Virus record (IMG/VR): IMGVR_UViG_3300035210_000189
Location: 1-64,000 of that record
Source: a virus
Length of the DNA: 64,000 nt
Strand: one strand, 5' to 3'
Part shown: piece by piece, positions 13,393-50,000 of the stretch
Numbering within the stretch: the stretch's first letter is position 1
How the letters are laid out: each line of letters opens with the position of its first letter
Notes under the pieces: generated by a model
Told to the model about the DNA's origin: nothing
Databases searched by the model: none
Seen by the model: only the letters and a program-made list of their open reading frames with translations
Program-made: the position numbers and the translations under genes

Positions 13393-13469
13393 CTCTGCGT
13401 AGCTCAGTTGGATAGAGTGCTCGCTTCCGAAGCGAACGGTCGTTGGTTCGAATCCAACCGTAGAGGCCA
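13393..13469 (+). tRNA. tRNA-Arg (anticodon CCG)
   Basis: 77 nt with encoded CCA. Cloverleaf: acceptor CTCTGCG/CGTAGAG with one G-U, D stem GCTC/GAGT, anticodon stem CTCGC with loop TTCCGAA (anticodon CCG, reads CGG), a 5-nt variable loop and T arm GTTGG-TTCGAAT-CCAAC, discriminator G. The anticodon stem has a C-A mismatch at 27-43. A TATAAT at 13325 lies upstream. The next CDS begins 21 nt downstream, so the RNA is probably cut from a tRNA-mRNA transcript. Confidence 0.93.
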
Positions 13470-22359: not shown

Positions 22360-22920
22360 ATGATTACGAAAGACATGTCTGTTCTTGAAGCAGTGACAGT
22401 TGTCAATAATTATGTAGAAAAAGCCGAAGAATTTTATTTGACATACCATGAGGCTGTTCGCTCACTTCGTAAAGCTGCAGTGTTCATTCGCAATGGTGAT
22501 ACTAAACAGCTTGTGCTGAAAGAAATTAAAGCTTATGAGAATGACGATCATGAATTTGTCCGTCGATATCAACCGTTGGTATTTTCATTTATCTATTACA
22601 TCTTCAACCATCCAGAGAAAGAATCGCTTTTTGTTAGCGAAATTGTTCCTAAATCGGATGATGATTTCTACAATTACAAGTTTTCTGGTCATTTGGGTGG
22701 TCCCTTGGCACGTTTGCTTGAACTTGAAAAAGAAGAGATTGAATTTAATCTCGGTGGTTTCTATGAAGATATGCCAACTGAAAACCTAATCAATGGTAAT
22801 ATGACGCCATCAGAATTCATTAAAGCGATCAGAAAATATGTGGAAGACGAACAGACTTTCAATTTTGATACGATTGCAAAAAATCATAAAGATGTTGTCG
22901 ATTCCTACGAAAATAAATGA
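22360..22920 (+). CDS. acidic hypothetical protein
   Basis: 186 aa, RBS AAGAGGA, ATG 22360. Helical N-terminal half, then a glycine-containing segment FSGHLGGPLARLLELEKEE; no signal peptide. Monocistronic, directly upstream of the large non-coding RNA. No family recognised. Confidence 0.6.
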   Translation: MITKDMSVLEAVTVVNNYVEKAEEFYLTYHEAVRSLRKAAVFIRNGDTKQLVLKEIKAYENDDHEFVRRYQPLVFSFIYYIFNHPEKESLFVSEIVPKSDDDFYNYKFSGHLGGPLARLLELEKEEIEFNLGGFYEDMPTENLINGNMTPSEFIKAIRKYVEDEQTFNFDTIAKNHKDVVDSYENK

Positions 22921-22939: not shown

Positions 22940-22968
22940 TTGCCAAAAACCATGAATTGTCGTATAAT
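22940..22968 (+). promoter_or_regulatory. strong sigma70 promoter of the non-coding RNA
   Basis: TTGCCA (22940-22945), exactly 17 nt, TATAAT (22963-22968); start expected near 22975. No ORF follows. Confidence 0.8.
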
Positions 22969-22974
22969 GGCCTC

Positions 22975-23449
22975 GTTGTAAAGCAATAAGGTAATCTTGG
23001 AAAGTGGGCTTAAAAGCAGCCATCTTTTAATGAGTAGAGCGGTTGCCACAGGTGTTTGGGATACAGTGATGGTAAGCATCGGGTTCAAGTAATTTAGCAG
23101 TTATTTGAAGGTATCGGTGACAAGTGAGCCACGGTTTGTCGAAATTGAATCCACATTAAAGTAGATTTTGCAGATCAAAACGTCTCAGCCAAAAACGCCC
23201 AGTTCTTGCAATAATGTAAGAATTTGCCGTGGTTGTGGTCTTGGTACAGTAATGAGACACCCCAGAAATGGTAAGGTCGAGTTCTCTTTTGGCGTAATAG
23301 CACACCATGATTATGATTGTTTTTTGCAACAAATCTGCCGCTAAGGCTGACCTTGGCCCTCTAAAAGCTAAAGGGAACGGTTCGACTCCGTTGCGGTGGA
23401 CCAATTTAAGATAATGCCAACTCATAGTGATGTGATGTTGGCATTTTTA
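22975..23449 (+). ncRNA. large structured non-coding RNA with tRNA-like 3' domain
   Basis: A gene-free stretch bounded by a near-consensus promoter and an intrinsic terminator. The 3' part folds like a tRNA: T arm AACGG-TTCGACT-CCGTT (23376-23392), acceptor CTGCCGC (23335-23341) paired with GCGGTGG (23393-23399), discriminator A and encoded CCA (23401-23403). The D arm is tiny (AGG-CTGA-CCT) and the anticodon arm has an 11-nt loop, so it cannot be a normal decoding tRNA. The 360-nt body has helices AGCCACGG/CCGTGGTT, TTCTTGCA/TGTAAGAA, GTCTC/GAGAC and GCCAAAA/TTTTGGC, the last two forming a possible pseudoknot. Canonical tmRNA hallmarks (GATTCGACG, ALAA tag) are absent. A diverged tmRNA, or a GOLLD/ROOL-type element RNA, remain alternatives. 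Confidence 0.7.
23413..23449 (+). terminator. terminator of the non-coding RNA
   Basis: Perfect 9-bp stem AATGCCAAC (23413-23421)/GTTGGCATT (23437-23445), 15-nt loop, followed by T-rich sequence. It abuts the next promoter. Confidence 0.85.
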
Positions 23450-23478
23450 TTGTTTTTATTTTATTTATATGATATAAT
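23450..23478 (+). promoter_or_regulatory. sigma70-type promoter
   Basis: TTGTTT, 17-nt spacer, TATAAT (23473-23478); begins inside the T-run of the preceding terminator. It places the first usable start at ATG 23505. Confidence 0.6.
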
Positions 23479-28440: not shown

Positions 28441-29022
28441 ATGTTCAATAAATTTATTAATTATATAAAATTAGACAAAACAACTATTCTTATACTTGTT
28501 GCTATCTTATCCTTCAAGTCTTTCGCTTATAATCCATCTTATGTCCCTACTGGCTCAATGATACCTACCATTGATGAGAAATCATTTATATTGGTTGATG
28601 TTCATAGCTATGGTCTGAAAATACCTTTTACTAAAATTGAAATTTTAAAAACAGGTCATCCAGAACGTGGTGATATTGCTGTGTTTAGAATGCCACTGGA
28701 TGAAAGCACCAATTATGTAAAACGTATTGTGGCAGTAGCGGGTGATACTGTTTACTTCAACGACCATTCATTTAAAATTAATGAAATGCCTACTGATATG
28801 CCTAATATGAAGAAAGCTGTTGTTCCAGTCGGTTACTATTTTGCCATTGGTGATAACATTAATCACTCTTATGATAGCCGTTTCTGGGGTTATGTTCCAG
28901 AGAGTAACTTGGTAGGGAAATACGTCACCACATTGCTCAGTTTGAATAAGATATTACCTAACTCAGATAAGCCTGCAGAACATGAAAAGCATGGCGAAGA
29001 AAAACTCAATTTGCAAAAATAA
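28441..29022 (+). CDS. lepB: signal peptidase I (S26 family)
   Basis: 193 aa. One N-terminal membrane helix (residues 12-29), then the catalytic serine in PTGSMIPT (Ser 39), the catalytic lysine in YVKRIVAVAGD (Lys 94) and the late box GDNxxxSYDSRFWG. It cleaves Sec signal peptides on the periplasmic side of the inner membrane. Shorter than housekeeping LepB (about 320 aa) and with one rather than two TM segments, like the S26 enzymes of conjugative elements (TraF-type). The many exported proteins in this window are plausible substrates. Own promoter region; no operon partner. Confidence 0.9.
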   Translation: MFNKFINYIKLDKTTILILVAILSFKSFAYNPSYVPTGSMIPTIDEKSFILVDVHSYGLKIPFTKIEILKTGHPERGDIAVFRMPLDESTNYVKRIVAVAGDTVYFNDHSFKINEMPTDMPNMKKAVVPVGYYFAIGDNINHSYDSRFWGYVPESNLVGKYVTTLLSLNKILPNSDKPAEHEKHGEEKLNLQK

Positions 29023-48914: not shown

Positions 48915-50000
48915 ATGTCTACGTTTAAAGCGACAGTTCTTCCAGTCATTGTTGAGCCACATCCTAACGCTGATGCGATTGAACTGGCTCGCGTCGGGGA
49001 TTTCTTCTCGATCATTCAAAAAGGATACCTGAAAACAGGTGACTTGGCTGTTTATATTCCAGAAGGTGCCCTTGTTCCTGATTTCATTCAAGAAGAAGTG
49101 GGTTGCCTTGGTAAATTGGCAGGTTCCAAGAAAAACCGTTTGAAGCCTTCCATGCTTCGTGGTGTTCTTAGTCAAGGTCTTTGCTTTAAAGCCCGTGATG
49201 GCTGGGCTATCGGTGACGATAAAGCCGAAGAATTGGGTATCATCAAGTATGAAGCTCCTATTCCAGCCTCCATGAATGGTGAGATTTCTAACGTGGGCAT
49301 TGAAAACACTTTCCACTTTGACATTGAAAACGTCAAGCGTTACCCTGATGTATTGGTTGATGGTGAGCTTGTATCCATGACTGAAAAACTTCATGGCACG
49401 TTCACTATTGCTGGTAGCGTTTATGGTAAAGACCCTATTCCACATGTGGTTGATGGTCGCTCATTCGTGAGTAGCAAAGGTTTCTTTAACAAAGGCTTGG
49501 TGCTTCGTGACAACGAACAAAATGCTCATAACATTTACATTCGTGTTGCTAAAAAGTTCAATCTTTATGAGATTACAGCCATCCTTGCAGATCGCTACAA
49601 AACCAATGCTTATATTTCGGGCGAAACATTTGGTGCTGTTCAAGATTTGACTTACGGCTTGGATGCTGGCGTATTTGATTTCCGTGTCTTCAACTTGTTC
49701 CTTGGTTCGCGTAGTGATGCAAAAGGCGTGTTCCCAGTGGATGATGATGTGCTTGAAGCCTTGCTCACTGAGTTCAACTTGAAACGTGTTCCTGTGCTTT
49801 ACAAAGGCCCATACAGCAAAGAAGTCATGTTGAAATACACTGATGGGTTGGAAACTTACTCTGGCAAAGAAACACACATTCGTGAGGGTCTTGTTGTGGA
49901 ACCGCTTGTTCAGCGTCGAGATCCAGCCATTGGCCGTGTTGTCTTAAAAAGCGTTTCAACTGCTTACCTTTCTCGCAAAGGCGGCACAGAACTAAACTGA
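48915..50000 (+). CDS. ATP-dependent RNA ligase, Rnl5 (DraRnl)-like
   Basis: 361 aa, RBS AGAGGA, ATG 48915. N-terminal OB-fold-like domain with PHPNADAIELARVGD (residues 15-29) and LKTGDLAVYIPEG, then the nucleotidyltransferase: motif I EKLHGT with lysine 158 accepting AMP, YISGETFG (motif III region), REGLVVEP (motif IV) and VLKSVSTAYLSRKGGTE (motif V). This arrangement is that of the Rnl5 family, which seals RNA nicks or ends. In mobile elements it probably repairs RNA, for example tRNA cut by host defence nucleases. Monocistronic, strong promoter region (TATAAT-like at about 48878). Confidence 0.88.
   Translation: MSTFKATVLPVIVEPHPNADAIELARVGDFFSIIQKGYLKTGDLAVYIPEGALVPDFIQEEVGCLGKLAGSKKNRLKPSMLRGVLSQGLCFKARDGWAIGDDKAEELGIIKYEAPIPASMNGEISNVGIENTFHFDIENVKRYPDVLVDGELVSMTEKLHGTFTIAGSVYGKDPIPHVVDGRSFVSSKGFFNKGLVLRDNEQNAHNIYIRVAKKFNLYEITAILADRYKTNAYISGETFGAVQDLTYGLDAGVFDFRVFNLFLGSRSDAKGVFPVDDDVLEALLTEFNLKRVPVLYKGPYSKEVMLKYTDGLETYSGKETHIREGLVVEPLVQRRDPAIGRVVLKSVSTAYLSRKGGTELN

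Follow-up and report, generated by a model that had tools for sequence, protein, structure and literature searches.

A phage RNA predicted to rebuild the GTPase-associated centre of bacterial 23S rRNA

Sequence comparison indicates that positions 22975-23331 of the window (the whole 64,000-nt stretch of viral DNA that was analysed) encode a structured RNA of their own, in which the GTPase-associated centre (GAC) of bacterial 23S rRNA is rebuilt. This centre, made up of helices 43 and 44, is the site of L11 and thiostrepton, and translation factors dock there as well. Relatives of this RNA occur in more than 100 diverse, mostly large phages, which suggests that it is used to interfere with host translation or to hitch onto it.

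A copy of the GAC in a gene-free region

The region is bounded by the ORFs 22360-22920 and 23478/23506-24161, and the stretch between them is empty, as a sequence-only reading of this DNA had claimed; the flanking genes have no PHROG match. With Rfam 15 no family reached its gathering cut-off at the region, a permissive search (E<=10) returned only noise, and the covariance models named for checking by that reading (tmRNA, GOLLD, ROOL, and tRNA) all stayed below cut-off. Its claim that the RNA matches no known class is thus upheld by Rfam, and a new class is probable. It had also remarked on missing tmRNA hallmarks, and indeed there is no tmRNA D-loop, tag ORF, RF00023 match or ARAGORN match. 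Of its own candidates, the derived tmRNA is ruled out by ARAGORN and Rfam, the tRNA-like part being a neighbouring gene; the GOLLD or ROOL relative is likewise ruled out, since neither covariance model matches in the window and GOLLD occurs elsewhere in the same phages.

Sensitive BLAST against phage records gave short matches in unrelated phages, mostly in unannotated DNA and in the best cases at two distinct spots of the region, GTGGGCTTAAAAGCAGCCATCTTTTAATGAG and GGCGTAATAGCACACC. Each of these sequences is one strand of the GAC of 23S rRNA. In a BLAST comparison with the E. coli rrn operon, window positions 23007-23030 correspond to 23S 1062-1085 (22/24 identical, E 4e-4) and the 3' strand matches 23S 1091-1100 at 10 of 10 positions; both strands are collinear with 23S, and the operon gave no further meaningful match. 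The 5' strand is identical to E. coli 1057-1088 at 27 of 32 positions, whereas 200 random 64-kb sequences with matched dinucleotide composition gave a best of 23/32; the 3' strand agrees at 13 of 14. In 23S rRNA the strands are almost adjacent; in the window RNA 252 nt sit between the equivalents of positions 1090 and 1091.

From these comparisons and from folding we derive the following layout, all on the + strand. A closing stem, P1, has its 5' strand at 22975-23000, in a position like that of h42 and beginning about at the expected transcription start; it is predicted (cofold, MFE) to pair with 23305-23330, within a 3' strand that spans 23305-23331 and is also supported by family pairing. 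The 5' strand of the GAC mimic (23000-23035, equivalent to E. coli 23S 1055-1090 by BLAST, identity, and covariation) covers helix 43, the junction, and the start of helix 44, with the equivalent of A1067 at 23012. It is followed by the inserted domain (23036-23287), closed by a helix named Pi (AGAG/CTCT), and by a UUUG linker (23288-23291) that is a family signature foreign to 23S rRNA (T 125, T 125, T 125, and G 120 of 126 members, TTTGG having belonged to one of the search patterns). The 3' strand (23292-23305, equivalent to 23S 1091-1104) carries the helix 44 hairpin GC-GUAAUA-GC and places the equivalent of A1095 at 23296.

Folded alone, the window RNA is only modestly more stable than shuffled sequences (z -2.2), and because this single-sequence signal is slight, comparison had to decide. 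The minimum free energy is -97.3 kcal/mol versus -85.4 kcal/mol with the GAC pairs enforced, so that another helix 43 pairing is favoured by about 12 kcal/mol in a nearest-neighbour model that ignores tertiary stabilisation. A search of the insert for further parts of rRNA gave only 9-13-nt matches to the E. coli rrn operon, at chance level. An intron of a 23S gene was considered and rejected, because the flanks carry the GAC alone and a non-ribosomal stem closes them.

Covariation and spread of the family

Comparison of sequences across the family establishes the GAC sequence, the identity of its tertiary pair, the helices P1 and Pi, and the spread among phages, as well as the common location in tRNA arrays and the lack of the cassette in a sister phage. 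At least 126 distinct relatives were collected from IMG/VR contigs, GTDB genomes, and cultivated phages. Scanning IMG/VR with the 3' strand gave at least 120 loci and with the 5' strand 45. Among the 120 viral loci listed from the scan with the 3' strand only, the 5' strand was recovered upstream, within 470 nt and on the same strand, in 104 and downstream in none; this is an independent test, and it supports the GAC reading.

In helix 43 (1057-1081), 1058-1080 is paired in 124 of the 126 members (55 when shuffled), and the tertiary junction pair 1082-1086 in 119 (76 when shuffled), as U-A, C-G, or A-U; deliberately wrong partners (1082-1085 and 1083-1086) pair no more often than in shuffled data from the same 126 members. 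The P1 positions 1050-1054 are paired in 101-125 members compared to 51-94 in shuffles, with a median of 9 gap-free pairs versus 1 in the control, and the first three pairs of Pi form in 123, 121, and 116 members against 77, 72, and 55. U1060-A1088, G1063, and the 1056-A1103 mismatch are retained across the family. A1084 is present in 123/126 members, A1085 in 126/126, A1095 in 122/126, and A1067 in 110/126 (G in 12/126), an invariance of letters that is partly built in, since sequence patterns were used to collect the members; the letters of the helix 44 hexaloop GUARNA also belonged to one of these patterns, and the covarying positions reported here lie outside the 3'-strand pattern. Signatures specific to the family are GAGU-Pi-UUUG-GCGUARNAGC, A1101, and a U1090-A1101 pair. 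That the element is a captured piece of rRNA without function, as its derivation from rRNA would allow, is scarcely credible: it is already contradicted by the covariation, with compensatory changes across 126 members, as well as by the wide spread, the UUUG linker, and the U1090-A1101 pair.

Helix 44 is interrupted between 1090 and 1091 in all members. The insert belongs to at least two conserved subtypes and ranges from a few tens of nucleotides (26-63 nt in some members) to more than 360 nt, with a nearly constant GAC around it. The window insert is of subtype A, with a conserved GNRA-hairpin module (GNC-A-CC-CCR-GNRA-YGG-UAAG-GNC; 23256-23278, from a 28-member alignment and RNAalifold) followed by UAAGG. 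This combination of a variable insert and a constant GAC would also be expected if the GAC were a mere handle to L11 or to pre-50S particles and the insert the effector; we consider this a serious rival, though an unlikely one, since the smallest inserts leave little room for an effector.

The members in GTDB (at least 13 of 19 genome hits, counted whether or not they lie in prophages) span Clostridia to Nitrospirota, Bacteroidota, Bdellovibrio, and Parcubacteria. Cultivated carriers have genomes of 98-385 kb and comprise phages of Pseudomonas (Astolliot, Milchi, pf16, and UNO-G1W1), Aeromonas (4_4572), Cronobacter (GAP32), Pectobacterium (CBB), Serratia (BF), Erwinia (the pEa_SNUABM phages and Kaldavass), Xanthomonas (XacN1, XaC1, and XbC2), Acinetobacter (ME3), and Vibrio (2.275.O). 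None of the cultivated-phage records examined has an RNA annotation at the site, and some give a short hypothetical ORF there; only 14 of the 126 elements are contained in long open frames. Because the family lies unannotated in such well-known cultivated phages as GAP32, CBB, BF, XacN1, ME3, and pf16, it can be put to the test at once.

Hits in short Staphylococcus, Listeria, Salmonella, and Escherichia records labelled 'phage', together with Paenibacillus Pd_22F, are genuine 23S or contamination and were left out of the family; one of them (L008) reads straight through the GAC. The match in Enterobacter SonariX (L007) lies inside a coding gene, has no 3' strand, and is attributed to chance. 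In Astolliot and Milchi (L002 and L190) there is a tandem pair of GAC RNAs: about 300 nt upstream of the subtype-A copy, which is followed by tRNA-Met, lies a diverged copy of subtype B (GGGCTTAGAAGTAGCCAT...GACCCGTAGAGCATTTGGTGT).

The transcription unit, its tRNA-like gene and neighbouring RNAs

The sigma70-type promoter claimed by the sequence-only reading as near-perfect (TTGCCA-17-TATAAT, 22940-22968, 11/12 matches) ranks first among 38 promoter-like sites in 5 kb. The intrinsic terminator it had proposed is also found, as a terminator-like hairpin at 23413-23445 (AATGCCAAC/GTTGGCATT) that appears in the MFE fold, is followed by T-rich DNA, and is kept in L102 and in the syntenic phage L163; a strict terminator scan missed it because of its loop.

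Between the GAC RNA and this hairpin lies a degenerate tRNA-like gene with encoded CCA (23335-23403, + strand). Its 7-bp acceptor stem with G3-U70 and A73, its T arm, and the CCA had been described before and are real: compensatory changes occur among its three to four relatives, one in each of the acceptor and T stems, where a lack of covariation had been named as the sign of error, and one in the anticodon-like stem. The anticodon arm drawn earlier (a 4-bp stem with an 11-nt loop) did not survive comparison, only 8% of cells being paired; the conserved arm is TTGGC/GCTAA with an extended 9-nt loop. Infernal instead aligns the gene to the tRNA model with a TGGCC-CTCTAAA-AGCTA arm and the loop CUCUAAA, at 18.1 bits versus a cut-off of 29. 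A canonical tRNA was found here neither by ARAGORN nor by RF00005 (below cut-off), and no D stem is conserved. G3-U70 and A73, which give tRNA-Ala and tmRNA their alanine identity, are constant in all three to four relatives. The anticodon loop is CUA-like although the phage does not recode TAG: recoding was considered and shows no sign, TAG being the stop codon of 5 of the 75 ORFs in the window that reach 120 aa. The same phage also has an ordinary tRNA-Arg(CCG) (13393-13469), a signal peptidase S26 gene (28441-29022), and an RNA ligase gene (48915-50000).

L163, which is 81% identical to the window upstream and 75% downstream, has the same promoter (as TTGTCA...TATAAT) leading directly into the tRNA-like gene, with the GAC RNA absent. 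The GAC RNA is therefore a cassette that a tRNA transcription unit may carry or lack, and this comparison separates the first ~357 nt from the tRNA-like part. Of the earlier picture of a structured RNA with a tRNA-like 3' end, the structured RNA stands and the single molecule does not. A single RNA whose 3' end works as a tRNA-like domain, either tmRNA-like or as an aminoacylation decoy, would fit the promoter and terminator common to both parts and the constant alanine-type acceptor; we regard it as very improbable given that the tRNA-like gene stands on its own in L163, that in 90 of the 126 members no tRNA follows within 120 nt, and that the tRNA, where present, is usually an ordinary one.

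Across the family a tRNA begins within 30 nt downstream in 30 of the 126 members, as against 2.7% of random positions, and a tRNA gene lies within 120 nt on either side in 58 (46%); these tRNAs have mixed identities. Other RNAs were seen in the same phages. GOLLD forms a locus of its own in 8 of the 44 phage records with a GAC RNA, XacN1 has two GOLLD copies of equal score near its genome ends, and in one case (L129:1582-2307) GOLLD precedes the GAC RNA by about 85 nt. Another viral contig with a GAC RNA carries a 79-nt tmRNA tRNA-like domain without the mRNA-like part (L154:3380-3458, GGGGATTATCTGGATTCGAC...GGGGGTTCGACTCCCCCTATCTCCA), possibly a TLD-only phage tmRNA; it scored 54.8 bits with RF00023, over cut-off, in a scan of the whole locus and was not reported from a scan of 221 bases. 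In 5 of 40 GAC-RNA phages (L198, that is UNO-G1W1 96300-96383, and four other records) larger proteins partially match the C-terminal domain of ribosomal protein L7/L12, two of them over cut-off.

Possible function and comparison with known systems

The earlier suggestion that the RNA may act on translation is shared here as a possibility, although it was made without noticing the copy of the 23S GTPase centre. We propose, and rate as about evenly balanced, that the phage RNA captures host L11 or other GAC ligands and thereby changes host translation. The ~357-nt RNA would have a core that folds like the GAC of host 23S rRNA; P1 would clamp the two GAC strands, a task that otherwise falls to the remainder of the ribosome, and the lineage-specific insert would split helix 44. 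Transcription would start at the promoter at 22940-22968, and RNase P may free the GAC RNA from the tRNA-like gene. The product could then bind the ligands of an autonomous GAC fragment, host L11 first, and perhaps translational GTPases or tRNA elbows by way of its A1067 and A1095 loops. The 44 GAC-RNA phage records contain no phage-encoded L11, so the partner would be that of the host. Either the occupation of these ligands or the use of L11 as a handle would alter host translation in the infected cell. A second activity, specific to the lineage, presumably comes from the insert.

Several published observations bear on this proposal. The isolated 58-nt GAC folds autonomously and binds L11 (PMC4409310), RelA activation by starved ribosomes requires L11 (PMC7058999), in ribosomes with bound RelA the elbow of the tRNA is in contact with A1067 (PMC5829649), and another 23S rRNA fragment is known to change termination in vivo (reviewed in PMC6337102). 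Capture of host L11 is the simplest mechanism and would affect (p)ppGpp signalling and factor-dependent steps, either changing translation or blocking RelA activation. The most plausible consequence would be the loss of L11 function on ribosomes, so that RelA is less strongly activated and factors or termination behave differently. L11 titration would need a high copy number of the GAC RNA, and the insertion at 1090/1091 might disturb L11 binding. The G at 1067 in 12 of 126 members and the alternative helix 43 pairing favoured by energy minimisation also count against the proposal. The wider idea, that large phages of many phyla keep a free-standing GTPase centre which strips L11 or its ligands from ribosomes and so produces a relaxed-like state with RelA silent, is speculative and rather unlikely. 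Were it true, RelA would be unable to signal, translation would be re-tuned for the phage, and the RNA would to our knowledge be the first viral rRNA mimic that acts in trans.

The exposed A1067/A1095 surface, rather than L11, might be what works, trapping EF-G, EF-Tu-tRNA, RelA-tRNA, or, by their elbow, phage tRNAs from the same transcript. The retention of A1095 and A1067 (122 and 110 of 126) and the tight association with tRNA genes speak for such a trap, as do the stacking of A1067 on the tRNA elbow (PMC5829649) and EF-G's binding to oligonucleotides that mimic the thiostrepton domain, as that article reports from its reference 27. It is a serious rival, but we hold it to be unlikely, since a free GAC is expected to have a weak affinity for factors in the absence of L11 and a sarcin-ricin loop, and nothing resembling that loop turned up in the window RNA. 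Alternatively, the RNA might be an anti-defence or antibiotic decoy that absorbs a nuclease, toxin, modifying enzyme, or thiopeptide attacking the ribosomal GAC, which seems distinctly improbable. Phages carry many RNA and tRNA counter-defences, but we know of no defence system that targets the GAC, and a single rare enzyme fits poorly with the presence of the RNA in phages of very many phyla. In favour of a decoy, enzymes and thiopeptides do act on isolated 58-nt or 29-nt GAC RNA (PMC4409310). If a viral RNA does copy a functional centre of the ribosome, phages would have a new route to the host translation apparatus; L11 titration, blockade of the stringent response, and factor trapping become directly approachable questions, and the GAC RNA may also bear on the clustering of large structured RNAs with tRNA genes in big phages.

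No description of the GAC RNA was found in the open literature, preprints and most subscription journals lying outside the search. The neighbouring tRNA-like gene resembles tRNA and tmRNA in its acceptor, T arm, CCA, and G3-U70 but differs in having no ARAGORN call and a tRNA-model score below cut-off, and it is a separate unit. Like the phage RNAs GOLLD and ROOL, the GAC RNA is large, structured, and often near tRNA genes; unlike them it has no Rfam match, and it occupies a locus separate from that of GOLLD, which is reported from pull-downs to bind ribosomes (PMC12286853). Like the leaders of r-protein operons (e.g. the L10 leader) it is an extra-ribosomal RNA that appears to copy the rRNA site of an r-protein, but these leaders act in cis on r-protein genes whereas the phage RNA has no such gene attached. 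Compared to the bacterial 23S GAC itself (the L11-binding 58-mer, E. coli 1051-1108), the phage RNA stands alone with the free stem P1, a helix 44 opened by a large insert, a UUUG linker, A1101 instead of U, and no other 23S homology in the window RNA; yet both hairpins are alike in sequence and secondary structure, and the two RNAs share the tertiary pair 1082-1086, with covariation, U1060-A1088, and the A1067 and A1095 loops.
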